DNA of 64,000 bases from Lycium barbarum. Taxonomy: Eukaryota > Streptophyta > Magnoliopsida > Solanales > Solanaceae. The translations under genes were made by a program, and so were the position numbers. This document shows positions 1,973-59,996 of the stretch, one piece after another; the stretch's first letter is position 1; each line of letters opens with the position of its first letter. The notes under the pieces are model-generated. The model was given only the letters and a program-made list of their open reading frames with translations, did no database searches and was not told where the DNA came from. The stretch is from the NCBI RefSeq assembly GCF_019175385.1, contig NC_083344.1, forward strand, positions 60,636,782 through 60,700,781, in the 5' to 3' direction.

Positions 1973-3412
1973 CAATATGAGGATCCCATGCTAATGCAGT
2001 TCAGAGATACACTCCCTCAGAAGGAGGAGTCACTATTTGGTATTTCGGGAGATGGAGTTCTCCGATGCCGAGGCAGATTATGTGTTCACGATGTGGCAGG
2101 TTTACGCCACCAGATATTGAGGGACGCTCATTATTCCCGTTATTCTTTTCACCCCGGAGCAACGAAAATGTATCATGACCTTAAGTCTATATATTGGTGG
2201 AATGGAATGAAAAAAGATATAGTGGAATTCGTAGCTCAATGTCCTAATTGTCAACAAGTGAAAATCGAGCACCAAAAGTCGGGTGGATTGTTGCAAGCTA
2301 TAGAAATCCCAACTTGGAAATGGGAAGTGATTAACATGGACTTCATTTCAGGCTTACCCCGTTCTCGACGTAAGTATGATTCCATATGGGTGATTGTGGA
2401 TAGACTCACAAAGTCAACTCATTTCTTACCTGTCAGAACGACCTATGTGGCAGAAGATTATGAAAAGCTTTACCTTAGAGAGATAGTGAGACTCCATGGT
2501 GTTCCGGTATCTATTATCTCCGACAGAGGGACTCAGTTTACAGCTAACTTTTGGAAGTCTTTCCAAGAGGGTCTAGGGACCCAAGTGAGCCTTAGCACGA
2601 CATTTCACCCGCAGACCAATGGGCAAGCGGAACGTACCATTCAGACTCTTGAAGATATGTTACGGGCATGTATGATAGATTTTGGGGGAAATTGGGATGA
2701 TCATTTTCCACTCATTGAGTTTCCTTACAATAACAGTTATCATTCAAGCATTCAAATGGCACCGTATGAAGTTTTATATGGGCGAAACTGTAGATCCCCA
2801 ATTGGGTGGTTTGAAACAGGAGAGACCAAATTGATAGGGCCAGACTTGGTCCAGCAATCCATAGAGAAAGTTAAGCTCATACAACATAAGTTGTTAGCAG
2901 CCCAAAGTCGTCAAAATTCCTATGCGGATAATCGCCGAAGAAACTTAGAATTCCAAGTGAATGATTGGGTATTCCTGAAAGTGTCGCCAATGAAGGGCGT
3001 CATGAGATTTGGTAAAAAGGGGAAGCTTAGTCCCCGATACATTGGGCCTTATGAAATTGTGCGCAAAGTGGGCAAAGTGGCCTATGAATTAGATCTACCT
3101 CCGGATTTGGAGTCAGTCCATCCAGTTTTCCATGTCTCGATGCTTCGGAAATGTGTAGGAGATCCTACTAAGATCGTGCCAATAAATGATGTGCAAGTGA
3201 CAGAAAAGTTATCTTACGAAAAGGTACCCATTGCCATATTAGATAGGCAAGTACGGAGGCTTAGAAACAAAGAAGTGGCCTCGGTTAAGGTTCTATGGAG
3301 AAGCAGTAAACGAAAGGAAATGACATGGGAAGCGGAAGAGAGTATGCGATCCAGATATCCGCATTTATTTCAACCCTTGGAAGAAATCCAAGATGAGACG
3401 TCAAGATTTTAA
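1973..3412 (+). pseudogene. Element A pol: integrase with chromodomain, open segment of a dead polyprotein
   Basis: An uninterrupted 474-codon stretch (first Met at 1988) encodes integrase, which would insert cDNA into the genome. Counting from that Met, the zinc-binding H-H-C-C residues are H48, H55, C85 and C88. The catalytic triad is D118, D179 and E215, with the classic 35-residue spacing between the last two. A GPY/F-like region (about 335-385, with PRYIGPYEIV) and a chromodomain (about 405-470, with VKVLWRSS and MTWEAEE) follow, ending at a natural-looking stop at 3410-3412. The Met at 1988 is internal to the ancestral polyprotein: the upstream stop 1970-1972 (TGA, probably from CGA) separates it from RNase H. 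Intact domain, but the polyprotein around it is dead. Confidence 0.93.
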
Positions 3413-12459: not shown

Positions 12460-12492
12460 GTTTATAGATATGGCGCGCAGCACACCATAAAC
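12460..12492 (-). ncRNA. Leader hairpin of B with palindromic loop (candidate dimer-initiation signal)
   Basis: On the minus strand: outer arm GTTTAT, inner arm GGTGTG, loop CTGCGCGC, inner arm CATATC, a bulged T, outer arm ATAAAC. The loop contains the self-complementary hexamer GCGCGC. In L, I and M the same position has GTGCAC. The two hexamer differences are at positions that pair with each other in a loop-loop dimer. It lies about 50-80 nt downstream of the PBS. The RNA role is inferred. Confidence 0.65.
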
Positions 12493-12540: not shown

Positions 12541-12552
12541 GCTCTGATACCA
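12541..12552 (-). promoter_or_regulatory. Element B primer binding site (tRNA-iMet)
   Basis: The minus strand reads TGGTATCAGAGC, the standard plant initiator tRNA-Met complementary site, a few bases inside the 5' LTR end. It fixes B's orientation and its 5' boundary. Confidence 0.93.
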
Positions 12553-26698: not shown

Positions 26699-26710
26699 TG
26701 GTATCAGAGC
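26699..26710 (+). promoter_or_regulatory. Element F PBS (tRNA-iMet)
   Basis: TGGTATCAGAGC, a perfect match, three bases inside the end of the 5' LTR. Confidence 0.95.
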
Positions 26711-33229: not shown

Positions 33230-33263
33230 GTTTATAGATGTGGTGCACAACACATCGATAAAC
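33230..33263 (-). ncRNA. Leader hairpin of M with GTGCAC loop (candidate dimer-initiation signal)
   Basis: On the minus strand: arms GTTTAT/ATAAAC and GATGTG/CACATC around the loop TTGTGCAC, with C and T opposed between the stems. It is identical to the L copy although the elements lie in different hosts and M has no gag. Confidence 0.7.
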
Positions 33264-33307: not shown

Positions 33308-33319
33308 ACTCTGATACCA
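33308..33319 (-). promoter_or_regulatory. Element M PBS (tRNA-iMet, one mismatch)
   Basis: The minus strand reads TGGTATCAGAGT; the final base differs from the perfect site in F, L and B. It lies four bases inside the 5' LTR end at 33324. Confidence 0.9.
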
Positions 33320-41263: not shown

Positions 41264-41275
41264 TGGAATCAGAGC
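41264..41275 (+). promoter_or_regulatory. Element I PBS (tRNA-iMet, one mismatch)
   Basis: TGGAATCAGAGC, differing from the perfect site at the fourth base, four bases after the LTR end. Confidence 0.9.
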
Positions 41276-41319: not shown

Positions 41320-41353
41320 GTTTATCGGTGTGTTGTGCACCACATCTATAAAC
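41320..41353 (+). ncRNA. Leader hairpin of I with GTGCAC loop (candidate dimer-initiation signal)
   Basis: Arms GTTTAT/ATAAAC and GGTGTG/CACATC around the loop TTGTGCAC. Relative to L, one inner-arm A became G, which turns an A-T pair into a G-T wobble and keeps the stem. Confidence 0.7.
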
Positions 41354-48596: not shown

Positions 48597-50472
48597 TGTT
48601 ACATCCCATATTTTCGTGCATTGGAAAGCGTGCGAGTTAAATGACACTACTAACGAAAACGTGGTTATCCCCCAAGCTTATAGGTTATTAGAGTGATGGT
48701 ACATATGTGTTGGCAATGTTAGAAGTTAAAAAAATTGAAGAAAATAAGTTTCGTCGAGGTTTGAAATTTATTTGAATGAAATACGGTCCAAGCTATAATA
48801 TCCTGCATTTTGGACCGGGAAATTGAAACGTCCAACATGAGAAAATTTACCCGAGCATGGAGGATTTGGTCATATTCAAGCATGCAAATTAAGAACTCGG
48901 TGTATAAAAGGATGAAGTCCCAAAATGATTTAAGACGGTAAAGAGTGACATCAATGATTGGAAATAATATTTTATGTGTGGAAAATGAGGCCATGAACTA
49001 GTGACATATCATAGAAGTATAAAATGAGTATATAAGGTGTGCTAAAAATGATTATTATTCAAGTGAATTGAGATCAAGAAATTAATTATGTGGGTAATTG
49101 TTAAAAGTGGAATAAAGTGGGAGAGTATGGAATTAATTGTAGTGTTAATTAAAATTAAATGGATTATTGTTATCTTGTTGATCTCCACGTGGCTCTATGG
49201 GAAAGAGTGGGATATGACTTGACAATTAAAAGGTGGGCACTATACTAAAGTGGAATAAGAGGGGTGTACTAGGTGGACACGTAGAAAGCAAGAAAGTAGC
49301 ATGTAAATATTTCTATTTCTCTGAGAATTCATTCTAGTTTTAGAAAACTCATATGCTGATACTTAATTCTTAGAACAAGAAAAGTTATTTCTTTTTTTTT
49401 TTGGCAATCATGGCAGCGGTGCTTTTTCTCTTTAATGAGCAAAAATATAATTCCCTTAAGAACAACGTACGAGCTTAAGTCTTCACTTCGATATCGTTGT
49501 TCCGCCTTGTCGTGTTGTTGGATTTGGGTTTTCTTCGTAGTGAAGTAAGGTGGAAGAAGATTATTTCTTAGAATATAAGGTAAGAATTCTCCTCTACTAG
49601 ATATATTTAAATTCGTCCAGGCCATAGCTAAATTGTGAGACGGGAACTACGAAATTAATTGCGGGAAATCGGATAAATTGTTATTGCTATCATGTGGACT
49701 GTTTGGTGGTTGTTATAAATTGTTTGGTGTGCTGGAATATCGTGGGATTGGCTGTGTTGTTGTTTTGCTTGTTGTTATACTATATACATACGAAAATAAA
49801 GAAGTGTATACAGGTAACGGTATAGGAATATATATTGGGCTGTTTTGGAGGTAATTTGAGAATGGATTTAATTTTAGTTTGATATGAAATTATTGGTATT
49901 GTTGTTATTGGTATAATGATTGATATTTTTGCTAAGTTGGAATCACGAGGATTATTATGGTTTTAGAGAAGATGCTGCTCGAATGTCGTTAGATTTCTAA
50001 GTAATTAAGGATTGGTTTGAAAGAGTATCCTAATTTAATTATTGGCATATTTGGTACTATTTGTAGATGGTATGAGATTAGTGAGACGTGGGCCGAATTC
50101 TATAGAGTTATGAAGTGAGTTATTGCTCTGTTTCCATAGAATTTATGTGATCACGTTGTTGAAGTCTTTGTTTGTGATATGGAAATGATATGAAGTTTGG
50201 TTAGAACGAATTATACAGGGGATTCATTAAATCATTTGTTAATTTAATATGAGTTTAAAGCTAATTCCAACGGACTGATTTGAGCATATCGCTTTGGGAT
50301 ATAGACTTGCAGGTTCAAGAAATGAGACGTAGGATGAGTAAGTAAGCGACGAGGTATGTAAAGCTAATCCTTCTTTATTTTTGGCATGATTTATATGAAA
50401 CGAACAAACGATGAATGTATAAGCTCCTATTCTAAGAGACACTAGGATGGTTAATGTTCTTGATTTCCATCA
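48597..50472 (+). repeat. Element I 3' LTR, left piece
   Basis: Starts TGTTACATCCCATATTTTC and is nearly identical to 38188-40050. It is interrupted by L after catca (50468-50472). Confidence 0.94.
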
Positions 50473-53400
50473 TGTTACATCCGACATTTTTGTTCATTCG
50501 GAAAATTCAAGATAAAATGACTTGTGATGAATAAGGCCACAATTGGACCTTACTTGGCATGAATGTGTAAGTTATGAATACCTTGGTGTGGAATTACGAA
50601 AGGAGGCCAAGGGCCAAAATTGGAATTTTGGAAAACTTGGTCCATGAATTACCATTTTTAGCCAACAATTTGGGCTCAAAAAAAAAAAATAATAAGATAA
50701 GGCCCAATTGGGAAGGCCCAACCGGCCACTTCACTTTAGCCCAAGTCCATGGTGAATAATTAATCACCATGTGACATTATATATGTGATCTTATCTTAAG
50801 AAGGTTCAAGAAAAAAAATCAAAAGAAATCAAGAGCAAAAGAGGAGAGCATTTCGGGTTTTGGAGAGAAAAAGAAAGAAAAGAAAGAAAATTTTTTGGAG
50901 CCAATCCTTTGGTTTAAAGAGTTCATCTATTGAGAGATTATTGCTAAGCACAAGATTCTCTACAAGTTGGTATAAATATTGGGGCAAGAAAACAATTTTT
51001 ATCTCCAAGTGAAGGGCTTGAAGAAAGGTGTGAATTTCATGATTTTGTTGTGTTATAAATGGTATATGTATGTTGTAGTATGTGTGAATGAATGAAAAAC
51101 ATTGAAATTTTGTGTGTTGGAACTAGGGTTGTGTTGGCCGAATATGTACATGAAATTGCATGATTTTAATGGCTTGAATTCTTGTTGTAATCTAGTTGTA
51201 ATATGATGGGAATTATATTAGAAAGGAAAGTGGAATGAATTAGTGAAAAATTGGAAGTGTGGGAGGTGGCCGTGTGGTGCTAGGTTTGATATGAAATATG
51301 AATTTGATTTTTGGTTGTATGCTAATTGAGTTAAGGTGAATTGAATCTTGTTAGCATGTTAATTGTGTTGTTATGGAAGATTGGTTATTAAGTTGTTGAA
51401 GGAAATTATTGAACTTTGTTATGATTTGTGTATAAGTGAAAATGAAAGTGTTAAGAGGCAAATTATGCTTATGACAATGAACTTGGAATATAAAAATGTG
51501 TTGATGAGTTTGCATGTTGAAAGTTAGGAAGGGATTGGAAAAGTAGTGACTTGATGGAAAGTTGAATGTTTGTGAATTTTATGAATATCTTGTGAATATT
51601 ATGTGAACATGTTATGGATTCCTCCGATGTGTGTCGTAATGATTTTGATGGATAATGGATATGCAAATAATAAGTTTTGGTTGGAAATGTAAGCTTGAAA
51701 CGAAAGATGATTCGTCGTGTCGAAGGGTGGCTAATAATGCCATAGCGTATGATTTAGTGTTTATTGATGTTTGTTGTTGTTTGGATGTCTCCTCTGGGTT
51801 GTTGTGTTGCTAAGTTGAGCCGAGCTAAGTCTCGGGGATGTCGTATATACAGAGGAAATGCTGCCGAAATTTCGGTAGGCAATTATGTGTAAAGTTAGAG
51901 TATTGAAAGAATGAAACTAACCAAATGGTAAACTTGACCATTTCCAGATTTTGGACGAAATTTGGATTGACGTCGAGCGAGCATAAGGCGCCATCGAGGT
52001 ATGTGAAGCACTTCTCTACGTTCCTAGGCATGTTCTGGACGTGGTAGGCTCGACCGCGAGCCTTAAGTCCGACTCCGTTCCCCGGAATTCGAGACGGAAA
52101 ACCGCTCCAATTCCTTCAATTCAATTGAACCTATTTTCTTACAAATTGTCCTTAAAGTGAGATTTTGCACAAAAATTTCCCCAAACGGAGTCGGAACACT
52201 TCCGAATGAGTATGGGTGACCTCATAAGGTCAATTATCAATAATTTACGTATGTAGTCTCGGGTGGGTCCGAGGTGGGCCCACAAGGCCCGATACTCCCG
52301 GTATGATTTTAAAATACATCTGTTTTGGTCCGATGTTCTCCAAGAACTTCTGAACTATTGTTTTATGTATATTATGGCTATTTTTGTGTAATTTATACAA
52401 TATGATTTCTGAACAGTTGAGAATCCCATTCTGATAATAATCTGTCGTGCCTTCCCAACTAGGATATAGGCGCGTACTATGCATACTATCTGGATATTCT
52501 GATTTTGGCTCGCCGTTTGGCACCCTTCAATTTGATCGAGTCTGTATGTTGAGTCTGTAGGTAGGTGGTTTCTCATTTATCGATTCGTGTCTGTCTCAAT
52601 GCATTCTTTCACTGCGACCCAGGCCAGGTTCTGTTATCGTGCATAATTCTCTGCATTGTTCACCGCGTCCCTCGGCGTACGGGCCGGGATCTGTATGTCT
52701 GTATGATCTGTGTATGGGGATGGCGGCCAGGATGGCATATGATCTGATTTGATTCTGTCTGTCCACCGCGTCCCGTACTAAGAGGGCCGGGTTCTGTTAC
52801 CGCGCCCCCAGACAGGGCCGGGATCTGTATGAATATATGCGTGTGCCATCTGTATTTATAAAGCACACGCCCTTGTATGATTTTGTATGACTCTGTGCTA
52901 CTCTGCATGCATAATTCTGTCCGTCATACTACTGTCTGTCCGTCTGTGTTACGACTATTTCTGTATGTCCGTATGGCTTCTGCTTCTGTATGTCCGTATG
53001 GATTCAGATTCTGCTCGTCTGTCCGTATTATGATTCCGTCTGTCTGTCCGAACTATAATTCTGTTCATTTGTGTGTAACACGATTCTATATGTCTGTCTG
53101 GATCATAACTCTGTCCGTTAGTTTGACTTATGATTTTGCCCGTTATATTTCTGTGACTCTAGTTCGGACTATGTTTATATCTGTTACGTTTCTGCTTTAC
53201 ATACTCGGTACATTTTCCGTACTGACCCCCGTTCTTCGGGGGCTGCGCTACATGCCCGCAGGTACAGACGCACCAGGTGATACGCCGCCCGCGTAGGATT
53301 CCGACTCTGCTTTTTGAAGAGCTCCTTTGACCCGGAGCATATCTTTTGGTATATATTTTCTGTCTTCTGTGTACTCCGTATGTGTGTATATTCTGGGTAC

Positions 53401-53700
53401 GGCGGGGCCCTGTCCCGCCATATGATTTTGTATGTCTGTAGAGGCCTGTAGATAGATGTGTGGGTTACGGGTTTCGTCTGTATGTTAGCCTTATCGGCTT
53501 ACTTATAAATGTCTGTATGTTCAGGTATATATGTATATATACGTATGGTTGCGCGCGTGCCGTATTTGTATCGGCCTATTTCCGTACTTCTGTTTTGAAA
53601 CGAAAAAAAAAAATTTGTATGATTCAAATTCGATCAGATAGGTACGTATGGGTATCCAGTTAGGGTACCAGTCGCGGCCCACGGGGTTTGGGTCGTGACA
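50473..53700 (+). repeat. Element L 5' LTR (3228 bp)
   Basis: TGTTACATCCGAC...GTCGTGACA. It contains CTGTCCGT/CTGTATGTCCG-rich imperfect repeats (about 52910-53160) and the R-type twin hairpin with CCCCC/GGGGG at 53226-53242. No gene. Confidence 0.96.
53226..53242 (+). ncRNA. R-region hairpin of L LTR (representative)
   Basis: CCCCC-GTTCTTC-GGGGG, preceded by a second inverted repeat, CGGTAC and GTACTG, and followed by GCTGCG. The same twin arrangement is in the 3' LTR and in G, H, I, K and M, with changed but still complementary arms in A, B and D. Confidence 0.7.
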
Positions 53701-53704
53701 AAAG

Positions 53705-53716
53705 TGGTATCAGAGC
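53705..53716 (+). promoter_or_regulatory. Element L PBS (tRNA-iMet)
   Basis: TGGTATCAGAGC, perfect, four bases after the 5' LTR end. Confidence 0.96.
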
Positions 53717-53760
53717 GGTTAGTCCTCGGAATGTCTACAGGCCGTGTCTAGTAGAGTCTT

Positions 53761-53794
53761 GTTTATCGATGTGTTGTGCACCACATCTATAAAC
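53761..53794 (+). ncRNA. Leader hairpin of L with GTGCAC loop (candidate dimer-initiation signal)
   Basis: Outer arms GTTTAT/ATAAAC, inner arms GATGTG/CACATC, a single C-T opposition between them, and the loop TTGTGCAC, whose last six bases are self-complementary. It lies 45 nt after the PBS and 109 nt before the gag ATG. Flanking sequence (CTACAGG..CGTGTCTAGTA before, GAAGCTACAGGGCAT after) is also conserved in B, I and M. Confidence 0.72.
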
Positions 53795-53903
53795 GGGAAG
53801 CTACAGGGCATTTAGGATGTTACCCTTCTTTGGATCTTTAGATCGTGCGATAGAACTGTATTAGTAGGATGAACCTCTCCTAACGATCTGCTATGTTTCA
53901 GTG

Positions 53904-55334
53904 ATGCCTCCGAAGAAGGCAACAGCTGCCCAGAAGGGCAAGGCCAGGATTGAGGCAGGAGAGACCAGCCAGGCCCCGAGGGTTACCAGGGCCAGTGTGC
54001 ACCCTGCACTTGAGGATGTGCCCCCGTCGTCTGGATCTGTTACACCCCCCTTGCCGGAGGATATCAGAGCAGCAGGAGCTGCTAATCGGGAGACGGCTCC
54101 ACCGCAAGCCCCTGAGGTTCCAGTGCCCGAGCCTCCAGCTCCACAGGCAGGGGCGGAGGGTAGGGCCATGCGAGATGCGGTTCAATTATTGACCATATTG
54201 ATGGCGGAGCAGGTTCGCAGGCATGGATTTGGGGGTGGTCGTGCGGATAGGTACGAGAGCTCTAGGGCTCGTGAGTTTCTGACATGTAATCCTCCAGAAT
54301 TCTCGGGGGCAAAACCTGAGGAGGATCCCCAGGAGTTCATTAGAAAGATGGAGAGCACACTACGACTGATTAAGGCTTCGCCGACTGAGTCTGTGGAGTT
54401 GGCTTCGTATCGATTATATGAGGTGGCAGCAAATTGGTATGAGTCTTGGCAGCTCTCCAGGGGTGACGATGCTCCCCCAGCGGTATGGGCCGAATTTACT
54501 AAGGCCTTTCTTGACCATTTTCTACCACCAGAGCTACGAAGAGCTAGGGTCGATCGGTTCTTGAACTTGAGACAGAATGGTAGAAGTGTTCGCGAGTACA
54601 GCCTAGAGTTCGACTCACTGGCTAGGTATGCGCCCGCCATAGTAGCCGAGATGGCCGACAGGGTGCACAGGTATGTGATGGGACTGGACTCTTATCTGAT
54701 TGATGGTTGTTTGGCTGTGGCTGCTCAGCCAGGGATGCATGTAGCCCGGGTACAGGCACACGCCCAGGGCATGGAGGACCGACGTAGGGAACGTCGGCCT
54801 GATAGGGGTTACGACAGGGGCCAGCCTAAGAGAGCCAGATCGGCTGGGTATTCAGAGGGATTTCAGAGCGAGCCTTCCCAGCGGCAGAGAAATAGGTATT
54901 CGTCCCAGCCAGCCTACAGTACGCCCCCACAGTTCGCAGGACAGAGCTCCAGAGGTCCCGGTCAGTCGAGGCCACCCATACCCCCGTGTTCTTATTGTGG
55001 GAGGCCCCACCCGGGGGAGTGTTACCGCGCTACGGGCGCTTGTTATTTTTGTGGGAGCCCAGACCATCGAGTCAGAGAGTGCCCACTTAAGGGCAGTTCG
55101 GGTTCAGCCCGGCCTGCTGGGTCCGTTGCAGGCTCATCTTCTCCTTCAGCGGCCATGCGCCCTGCGGGGCGAGGAGCACCAGCACCAGCACCAGCGCCAG
55201 CGGGTCGTGGCAGAGGACGTGGTGCAGCTTCTGGTTACAGCGGTCCTTCGAACCGCGTGTTTGCTTTAACTGGCCGGCAGGACCCAGGAGCATCTTCGAG
55301 TGCACGCCCAGGTACGCCAGCCAATCCTTTTTGA
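53904..55334 (+). CDS. gag: Element L Gag, intact, 476 aa, no pol attached
   Basis: The ATG at 53904 is preferred over the in-frame GTG at 53901; it gives the N-terminus MPPKKATAAQKG. Residues 1-90 are Ala/Pro-rich and disordered. About 125-295 is a Retrotrans_gag capsid-like domain (with FLTCNPPEFSGAKPEEDPQE, then FLDHFLPPELRRARVDRFL and REYSLEFDSLARY). Residues 300-360 are Arg/Gln-rich. Two zinc knuckles follow: C362-C365-H369-C373 (shortened spacing) and C380-C383-H388-C393 (canonical CCHC), for RNA binding. A Gly/Arg tail ends with RVFALTGRQDPGASS and a stop. In C the same linker leads into protease, so L is truncated just upstream of protease. GC content is higher than the surroundings. 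No inactivating change is seen. Confidence 0.93.
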   Translation: MPPKKATAAQKGKARIEAGETSQAPRVTRASVHPALEDVPPSSGSVTPPLPEDIRAAGAANRETAPPQAPEVPVPEPPAPQAGAEGRAMRDAVQLLTILMAEQVRRHGFGGGRADRYESSRAREFLTCNPPEFSGAKPEEDPQEFIRKMESTLRLIKASPTESVELASYRLYEVAANWYESWQLSRGDDAPPAVWAEFTKAFLDHFLPPELRRARVDRFLNLRQNGRSVREYSLEFDSLARYAPAIVAEMADRVHRYVMGLDSYLIDGCLAVAAQPGMHVARVQAHAQGMEDRRRERRPDRGYDRGQPKRARSAGYSEGFQSEPSQRQRNRYSSQPAYSTPPQFAGQSSRGPGQSRPPIPPCSYCGRPHPGECYRATGACYFCGSPDHRVRECPLKGSSGSARPAGSVAGSSSPSAAMRPAGRGAPAPAPAPAGRGRGRGAASGYSGPSNRVFALTGRQDPGASSSARPGTPANPF

Positions 55335-56732: not shown

Positions 56733-56768
56733 AACATTCGAGGACGAATGTTCTAAAGGGGGGGAGGA
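56733..56768 (+). promoter_or_regulatory. Element L PPT and upstream inverted repeat
   Basis: Perfect 8-bp inverted repeat AACATTCG-AGGA-CGAATGTT (56733-56752), then a purine run with seven consecutive G (56755-56768), ending at the LTR start. Confidence 0.93.
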
Positions 56769-59700
56769 TGTTACATCCGACATTTTTGTTCATTCGGAAA
56801 ATTCAAGATAAAATGACTTGTGATGAATAAGGCCACAATTGGACCTTACTTGGCATGAATGTGTAAGTTATGAATACCTTGGTGTGGAATTACGAAAGGA
56901 GGCCAAGGGCCAAAATTGGAATTTTGGAAAACTTGGTCCATGAATTACCATTTTTAGCCAACAATTTGGGCTCAAAAAAAAAATAATAAGATAAGGCCCA
57001 ATTGGGAAGGCCCAACCGGCCACTTCACTTTAGCCCAAGTCCATGGTGAATAATTAATCACCATGTGACATTATATATGTGATCTTATCTTAAGAAGGTT
57101 CAAGAAAAAAAAATCAAAAGAAATCAAGAGCAAAAGAGGAGAGCATTTCGGGTTTTGGAGAGAAAAAGAAAGAAAAGAAAGAAAAATTTTTGGAGCCAAT
57201 CCTTTGGTTTAAAGAGTTCATCTCTTGAGAGATTATTGCTAAGCACAAGATTCTCTACAAGTTGGTATAAATATTGGGGCAAGAAAACAATTTTTATCTC
57301 CAAGTGAAGGGCTTGAAGAAAGGTGTGAATTTCATGATTTTGTTGTGTTATAAATGGTATATGTATGTTGTAGTATGTGTGAATGAATGAAAAACATTGA
57401 AATTTTGTGTGTTGGAACTAGGGGTGTGTTGGCCGAATATGTACATGAAATTGCATGATTTTAATGGCTTGAATTCTTGTTGTAATCTAGTTGTAATATG
57501 ATGGGAATTATATTAGAAAGGAAAGTGGAATGAATTAGTGAAAAATTGGAAGTGTGGGAGGTGGCCGTGTGGTGCTAGGTTTGATATGAAATATGAATTT
57601 GATTTTTGGTTGTATGCTAATTGAGTTAAGGTGAATTGAATCTTGTTAGCATGTTAATTGTGTTGTTATGGAAGATTGGTTATTAAGTTGTTGAAGGAAA
57701 TTATTGAACTTTGTTATGATTTGTGTATAAGTGAAAATGAAAGTGTTAAGAGGCAAATTATGCTTATGACAATGAACTTGGAATATAAAAATGTGTTGAT
57801 GAGTTTGCATGTTGAAAGTTAGGAAGGGACTGGAAAAGTAGTGACTTGATGGAAAGTTGAATGTTTGTGAATTTTATGAATATCTTGTGAATATTATGTG
57901 AACATGTTATGGATTCCTCCGATGTGTGTCGTAATGATTTTGATGGATAATGGATATGAAAATAATAAGTTTTGGTTGGAAATGTAAGCTTGAAACGAAA
58001 GATGATTCGTCGTGTCGAAGGGTGGCTAATAATGCCATAGCGTATGATTTAGTGTTTATTGATGTTTGTTGTTGTTTGGATGTCTCCTCTGGGTTGTTGT
58101 GTTGCTAAGTTGAGCCGAGCTAAGTCTCGGGGATGTCGTATATACAGAGGAAATGCTGCCGAAATTTCGGTAGGCAATTATGTGTAAAGTTAGAGTATTG
58201 AAAGAATGAAACTAACCAAATGGTAAACTTGACCATTTCCAGATTTTGGACGAAATTTGGATTGACGCCGAGCGAGCATAAGGCGCCATCGAGGTATGTG
58301 AAGCACTTCTCTACGTTCCTAGGCATGTTCTGGACGTGGTAGGCTCGACCGCGAGCCTTAAGTCCGACTCCGTTCCCCGGAATTCGAGACGGAAAACCGC
58401 TCCAATTCCTTCAATTCAATTGAACCTATTTTCTTACAAATTGTCCTTAAAGTGAGATTTTGCACAAAAATTTCCCCAAACGGAGTCGGAACACTTCCGA
58501 ATGAGTATGGGTGACCTCATAAGGTCAATTATCAATAATTTACGTATGTAGTCTCGGGTGGGTCCGAGGTGGGCCCACAAGGCCCGATACTCCCGGTATG
58601 ATTTTAAAATACATCTGTTTTGGTCCGATGTTCTCCAAGAACTTCTGAACTATTGTTTTAGGTATATTATGGCTATTTTTGTGTAATTTATACAATATGA
58701 TTTCTGAACAGTTGAGAATCCCATTCTGATAATAATCTGTCGTGCCTTCCCAACTAGGATATAGGCGCGTACTATGCATACTATCTGGATATTCTGATTT
58801 TGGCTCGCCGTTTGGCACCCTTCAATTTGATCGAGTCTGTATGTTGAGTCTGTAGGTAGGTGGTTTCTCATTTATCGATTCGTGTCTGTCTCAATGCATT
58901 CTTTCACTGCGACCCGGGCCAGGTTCTGTTATCGTGCATAATTCTCTGCATTGTTCACCGCGTCCCTCGGCGTACGGGCCGGGATCTGTATGTCTGTATG
59001 ATCTGTGTATGGGGATGGCGGCCAGGATGGCATATGATCTGATTTGATTCTGTCTGTCCACCGCGTCCCGTACTAAGAGGGCCGGGTTCTGTTACCGCGC
59101 CCCCAGACAGGGCCGGGATCTGTATGAATATATGCGTGTGCCATCTGTATTTATAAAGCACACGCCCTTGTATGATTTTGTATGACTCTGTGCTACTCTG
59201 CATGCATAATTCTGTCCGTCATACTACTGTCTGTCCGTCTGTGTTACGACTATTTCTGTATGTCCGTATGGCTTCTGCTTCTGTATGTCCGTATGGATTC
59301 AGATTCTGCTCGTCTGTCCGTATTATGATTCCGTCTGTCTGTCCGAACTATAATTCTGTTCATTTGTGTGTAACACGATTCTATATGTCTGTCTGGATCA
59401 TAACTCTGTCCGTTAGTTTGACTTATGATTTTGCCCGTTATATTTCTGTGACTCTAGTTCGGACTATGTTTATATCTGTTACGTTTCTGCTTTACATACT
59501 CGGTACATTTTCCGTACTGACCCCCGTTCTTCGGGGGCTGCGCTACATGCCCGCAGGTACAGACGCACCAGGTGATACGCCGCCCGCGTAGGTTTCCGAC
59601 TCTGCTTTTTGAAGAGCTCCTTTGACCCGGAGCATATCTTTTGGTATATATTTTCTGTCTTCTGTGTACTCCGTATGTGTGTATATTCTGGGTACGGCGG

Positions 59701-59996
59701 GGCCCTGTCCCGCCATATGATTTTGTATGTCTGTAGAGGCCTGTAGATAGATGTGTGGGTTACGGGTTTCGTCTGTATGTTAGCCTTATCGGCTTACTTA
59801 TAAATGTCTGTATGTTCAGGTATATATGTATATATACGTATGGTTGCGCGCGTGCCGTATTTGTATCGGCCTATTTCCGTACTTCTGTTTTGAAACGAAA
59901 AAAAAAAAATTTGTATGATTCAAATTCGATTAGATAGGTACGTATGGGTATCCAGTTAGGGTACCAGTCGCGGCCCACGGGGTTTGGGTCGTGACA
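56769..59996 (+). repeat. Element L 3' LTR (3228 bp)
   Basis: Same length as the 5' LTR and nearly identical to it. Ends GTCGTGACA at 59996, followed by TSD catca. Confidence 0.96.

Follow-up and report, generated by a model that had tools for sequence, protein, structure and literature searches.

A conserved leader hairpin as a candidate kissing-loop dimer or packaging signal of plant-like Ty3/gypsy retrotransposons

A family of Ty3/gypsy-type retrotransposons carries, shortly after the primer-binding site (PBS), a leader hairpin that exposes a GC-rich and mostly self-complementary loop hexamer, and we put the probability that it is a DIS-like kissing-loop signal for dimerisation or packaging at about 0.55. 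This reading is preferred because of the position between PBS and gag, the exposed GC-rich palindrome and the survival of the hairpin in elements that lack gag. The hairpin itself is real: the four copies that a sequence-only reading had placed in the window (the whole 64,000-nucleotide stretch analysed), in elements designated L, I, M and B, are all present where, and on the strands on which, it had placed them (Table 1), and a recognisable form of the hairpin occurs in every one of 22 leaders of the family.

Hairpins, elements and the leader sample

Counted from the first base of the PBS, the hairpin begins after 56 nt in L, I and M and after 60 nt in B; the PBS of L, TGGTATCAGAGC, is presumably an initiator-tRNA-Met site. 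In L, I and M the fold consists of two helices separated by a 1x1 internal loop and capped by the 8-nt loop TTGTGCAC, with z-scores from -4.07 to -4.81 and none of 200 shuffles in each case being equally stable. The fold of B, with the loop CTGCGCGC, is weaker (z -2.40; equalled by 5 of 200 shuffles), and its open-loop form is 0.3 kcal/mol less stable than a competing fold that engages some of the hexamer with the 5' arm. The two-part stem with an 8-nt loop earlier described for all four copies thus stands for L, I and M, while the better competing fold of B had gone unnoticed. A longer stem is formed downward in the folds of M and B, spanning 68 nt in M; of the 26 pairs modelled on it, the lowest six compete with other pairing in L. 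A search of the whole window against Rfam at the gathering score returned no match.

Table 1. Features of the leader-bearing elements in the window
Feature	Position	Strand	Basis or remark
L 5' LTR	50472..53700	+	99.6% identity to 3' LTR; repeat ends at about 53700
L PBS TGGTATCAGAGC	53705..53716	+	pattern match
L extended 26-pair stem model	53744..53811	+	placed on L from the MFE fold of M
L leader hairpin, upper part, loop TTGTGCAC	53761..53794	+	two-part stem; MFE -16.5 kcal/mol for 53757-53798; 0/200 shuffles as stable
L loop hexamer GTGCAC, self-complementary	53776..53781	+	sequence
L gag ORF, capsid and CCHC zinc knuckle	53901..55334	+	domain search and similarity scan
L 3' LTR	56768..59996	+	repeat comparison
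I PBS	41264..41275	+	1 mismatch to pattern
I leader hairpin	41320..41353	+	hexamer GTGCAC 41335-41340
M leader hairpin	33230..33263	-	hexamer GTGCAC 33243-33248
M PBS	33308..33319	-	1 mismatch to pattern
B leader hairpin	12460..12492	-	hexamer GCGCGC 12473-12478
B PBS	12541..12552	-	pattern match

In L, which has LTRs of 3.2 kb each, the hairpin sits between the PBS (53705) and the gag ORF (from 53901), and the interior gave matches solely to gag-containing queries. Six gag/pol pieces taken from relatives were compared by tblastn (1e-8) with the interiors of I, M and B, whose limits were set from the repeats of the window (with a putative LTR assignment for B), and none of them hit; with LTRs and a PBS but no gag/pol match inside, these three qualify as LARDs (non-autonomous large retrotransposon derivatives), whereas L, a gag carrier, does not. 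Four elements are indeed present, but their independence had been overstated, as L, I and M form one clade; being related copies, the four do not provide four independent draws of a palindromic loop.

The family assignment comes from a similarity scan and from Retrotrans_gag, RVP_2, RVT_1, RT_RNaseH and SH3_Tf2-1 domains, which are distributed over 9 of 10 submitted ORFs lying downstream of leaders L036, L044, L045, L046 and L050, so that the gag, aspartyl protease, RT/RNase H and integrase-end domains of Ty3/gypsy elements are all represented among the leader-bearing elements. The pieces of these same five leaders gave no match to the integrase core, and those of L036 and L046 gave no Chromo hit at E 0.001, SH3_Tf2-1 being found. 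A chromodomain at the integrase C-terminus would mark the Tekay/chromovirus lineage, and the Tekay label of the sequence-only reading is provisional. Elsewhere in the window, a 474-aa integrase fragment (1988-3412, + strand) with Integrase_H2C2 and SH3_Tf2-1, together with sub-cutoff matches to the integrase core and the chromodomain, is linked to no leader. A fifth perfect PBS-like site (26699-26710, + strand) is followed by no hairpin and resembles the leaders only around the PBS.

The leader sample was drawn from the window and 200 kb of the surrounding chromosome (263 kb in total, with an uncovered 6.8-kb gap between the pieces), that is, from one region of one chromosome in one genome. 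Leaders were sought with the hairpin masked by N, and 22 were found, 4 within the window and 18 outside it, all of which were counted. As the hairpin had been replaced by N in the search, its presence in 22 of 22 leaders is not an artefact of conditioning on it. The most distant leader, L039+8101, shares 74% identity with B.

Leaders L001-L030, of which L009 is L itself, were excluded from every loop count, since as the best matches to the L query, all with the same loop, they are uninformative on variation. Of the best 40 scored matches to the L leader, out of 2187 first-look candidates genome-wide, 36 were 100% identical. The mean density of family leaders in the 263 kb is one per 12 kb, and this density together with the identity among the best 40 suggests a recent burst. 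Two leader-bearing copies, L032 and L033, stand in tandem at about 10.6-25.7 kb of the left stretch, and three L-type leaders of C5, at 39270807, 39277100 and 39283393 (spacing 6293 bp), look like a similar array. In a viral contig collection, one leader pattern and two looser ones gave 0 matches each, and of three stretches that fitted a peptide pattern for the gag protein, none could be confirmed as related; one leader pattern run against a genome contig collection likewise gave 0 matches.

Constraint on stem and loop

Across the 22 leaders and 26 pairs of the stem model (572 cells), 539 cells hold standard pairs (94%). Under a null in which the observed changes were re-dropped on a tree inferred without the hairpin columns, the mean was 74%, and none of 2000 runs reached the observed value; the upper stem alone is paired in 95% of cells against a null of 79%, reached by 5 of 2000 runs. 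When partners were slid, only 215 to 328 of the 572 cells paired, compared with 539 for the true partners. Double-sided changes that keep pairing occur at the column pairs 69-118, 77-110, 84-103 and 85-102, three of these four being seen only in L039+8101, and the double-change score of the stem lies within the tree null (reached by 329 of 2000 runs), with most stem variation being G-U or one-sided. Of the compensation expected for the stem, therefore, pairing far above the null was obtained, but an excess of double changes was not.

Gag similarity on the same strand, within 8 kb downstream or in the L interior, accompanies 12 of the 22 leaders and is absent from 10, one of which has an integrase-end match that possibly belongs to a neighbour. 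Stem pairing is found in 290 of 312 cells where gag lies downstream and in 249 of 260 where it does not, which bears out the claim that the hairpin is kept in elements without gag. Since the stem is kept equally in both groups, the hairpin is most likely a cis-acting RNA structure and not a product of coding constraint; shared descent may account for part of the conservation in the gag-less elements.

The loop hexamer is GCGCGC in 10 leaders, GTGCAC in 8, CTGCAC in 2 (one a tandem duplicate), and ATGCAC and GCACGC in 1 each. It is thus palindromic in 18 of 22, and the four exceptions amount to three events, two of the four loops being the tandem duplicate: L032 and L033 were rejected as independent non-palindromic sources, as they share 99.3% identity over 7946 bp. 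The dimer proposal had been made to depend on loops staying palindromic in a larger alignment, and 4 of the 22 loops do not. Parsimony places 0.83 changes per column in the hexamer (5 in 6 columns). The corresponding values are 0.50 for the PBS, 1.19 for the stem, 2.09 and 2.27 for the two leader flanks, and 2.0 for the two loop bases preceding the hexamer. GCGCGC contains two CpGs, and a CpG-rich, mostly unpaired hexamer that changes this slowly looks constrained, six columns being few. It is preceded by T in 20 leaders and by A in the other 2 (L043-9168 and L043+4194), and no unpaired base follows it.

How often such a loop would arise by chance was gauged on one strand of 20 dinucleotide shuffles of the window, which gave a mean of 30.2 hairpins of the same geometry per 64-kb strand, 1.35 of them (4.5%) with a palindromic loop hexamer. 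The scan of the real sequence counted at least 587 of 1034 hairpins with such a hexamer but provided no usable control, as the rows listed were mostly overlapping AT-repeat hits. Finding a palindrome in the loop of a single conserved hairpin is therefore suggestive and not proof.

Exposure of the hexamer bears on a purely intramolecular alternative, in which the 5' arm GGTGTG would pair with CGCGCC instead of with the 3' arm, giving two states and no contact between molecules. That pairing is the MFE fold of B, and B and the most distant leader are among the five of 22 in which the hexamer is predicted to be fully unpaired at P <= 0.40. In the other 17 the open loop is favoured at P >= 0.7, and by sequence reading the switch would need an A-C pair in L and, in L039+8101, the loop it left would be too short, so that we regard it as very improbable.

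Origin of the two loop types

At positions 2 and 5 of the hexamer, 11 leaders have T/A and the other 11 have C/G, so that the two bases are complementary in all 22. On the tree, GCGCGC is ancestral and the difference traces to one C>T and one G>A change on a single branch, for which the double-change score of the loop is 121 against a null mean of 5.4, with none of 2000 runs reaching it and one event on each side; the paired fraction of the loop is not significant on its own, being reached by 196 of 2000 null runs. The probability that two independent changes share a branch is 0.047; the branch in question makes up 1.2% of the tree and has a support of 0.31.

The switch from GCGCGC to GTGCAC consists of CpG-to-TpG and CpG-to-CpA, the exact products of CpG deamination. 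The covariation could accordingly be methylation decay, the clade with GTGCAC having descended from a founder in which both CpGs were lost (C2 to T, G5 to A), with the hairpin serving, for example, translation control, export or reverse transcription. The ancestral state and the placement of both changes on one branch would be expected under such decay, and a single-CpG product, GCACGC, exists in L031+9299. Double decay of GCGCGC can yield GTGTGC, GTGCAC, GCATGC or GCACAC, and because two of these four are palindromes, the covariation shifts the odds from methylation decay towards kissing by no more than about 2:1. Both CpGs are nonetheless intact in 10 of the 11 GCGCGC-type loops, and a coincidence of two decay events would have to fall on that short, if poorly supported, branch; taken together, we consider this explanation doubtful.

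A second conserved block lies about 50 nt past the hairpin, reading ATCGTGCGAT in 15 of 22 leaders (53842-53851, + strand, in the window) and forming an inverted repeat, ATCG..CGAT; in L039+8101 it reads ATTGTGCAAT and is again complementary, as ATTG..CAAT. As this change from ATCGTGCGAT to ATTGTGCAAT follows the same CpG pattern, it fits methylation decay and calls for caution on the covariation of the loop. Compensatory loop changes in independent lineages come down to the single CpG-compatible event, and covariation as a proof of kissing, which the sequence-only reading had seen in the paired hexamer positions, is not established.

A further alternative keeps the packaging role and dispenses with loop-loop contact: the hairpin would bind Gag or nucleocapsid, the protein would read the loop as sequence, and the palindrome would be incidental. 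Constraint on stem and loop and survival without gag are equally expected in that case; apart from two events (CTGCAC and ATGCAC), each loop either is GCGCGC or can be derived from it by CpG deamination, and the 22 leaders include no palindrome of unrelated sequence. What such a reading leaves to coincidence is that a clade-wide pair of hexamer changes preserved self-complementarity and that the loop is palindromic at all, for which the a priori chance is about 4.5%. We hold a protein-read loop to be credible, if on the whole unlikely.

Known dimer signals and significance

HIV-1 carries its dimer-initiation site (DIS), in SL1, between the PBS and gag, and Ty1, one of the yeast elements compared here, is of the Copia type. 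According to the available portion of one HIV-1 account, the prevalent DIS palindromes are GCGCGC, GUGCAC and GUGCGC, and flanking purines are important (PMC5874298). As far as that portion goes, the hairpin described here resembles SL1 in being a leader stem-loop with a 6-nt GC-rich loop palindrome, its two main forms being two of the three prevalent HIV-1 palindromes (PMC5874298), and differs from it in that the hexamer as a rule lacks flanking purines, with T before it in most leaders and no unpaired base after it. The loop has 8 nt in most leaders, the hairpin is known from sequence alone, and homology to HIV-1 is not claimed.

Among LTR retrotransposons, the accessible part of a yeast Ty3 account proposes as dimer site DS/PAL6, with the sequence CUGCAG at nt 391-396; of six palindromes it is the one nearest the 3' end, and three of the six fall inside the GAG ORF (PMC11381356). 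Both elements are of Ty3/gypsy type with a palindrome apical in a short hairpin near the RNA 5' end, whereas the palindrome described here lies in the leader, 71 nt after the PBS start in L (PMC11381356). For Ty1, SL1a-SL3a kissing loops are proposed, in the portion of the source at hand, to start genomic RNA dimerisation and packaging (PMC5454406); a loop-loop contact in an LTR retrotransposon is proposed in both cases, but Ty1 uses two different complementary apical motifs and the present hairpin one self-complementary loop (PMC5454406).

The closest plant parallel is barley BARE2, a gag-less parasite that, in the accessible part of its account, is said to keep signals for dimerisation and packaging and to be taken up into the particles of BARE1 (PMC3735527). 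BARE1 and BARE2 are plant LTR retrotransposons with a gag-less partner in which these signals are said to be conserved; they belong to the Copia superfamily, and that part of the account gives no hairpin or loop sequence (PMC3735527). The sequence-only reading had called a plant retrotransposon dimer signal with loop covariation notable without saying whether one had been described; dimer signals have already been claimed for BARE (PMC3735527). Among the open-licence papers listed, judged by title and the start of the abstract, none dealt with kissing loops as a signal of plant Ty3/gypsy elements, which is not proof of absence, and a term search of the main text of a 2025 review on host factors of plant LTR retrotransposons met no word beginning with "dimer" (PMC12786077). 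The leader hairpin, as a dimer or packaging signal in a plant-like Ty3/gypsy family, is a candidate new case of a known class.

Under the kissing-loop reading, the hairpin would act in cis in a genomic transcript, the GC-rich loop palindrome of one genomic RNA pairing with its counterpart in a second copy. Gag or nucleocapsid would then stabilise the RNA pair, and the two RNAs would be packaged together. Gag-less elements would keep the hairpin in order to use the particles of a relative.

The two hexamers GCGCGC and GTGCAC also divide the subtypes of HIV-1. Both loops occur here in gag-bearing as well as gag-less elements, and the hexamer might be a compatibility code that restricts co-packaging to RNAs with the same loop, the switch having divided the family into two groups by dimerisation, both of them with helpers that are autonomous and riders that are not; this extension is speculative and rather improbable. 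If the kissing-loop reading were confirmed, a plant-like Ty3/gypsy family would have a defined dimer or packaging signal, a short RNA would allow in vitro tests of how its gag-less elements depend on helpers, and the family and HIV-1 would have arrived by convergence at the same pair of loop hexamers.
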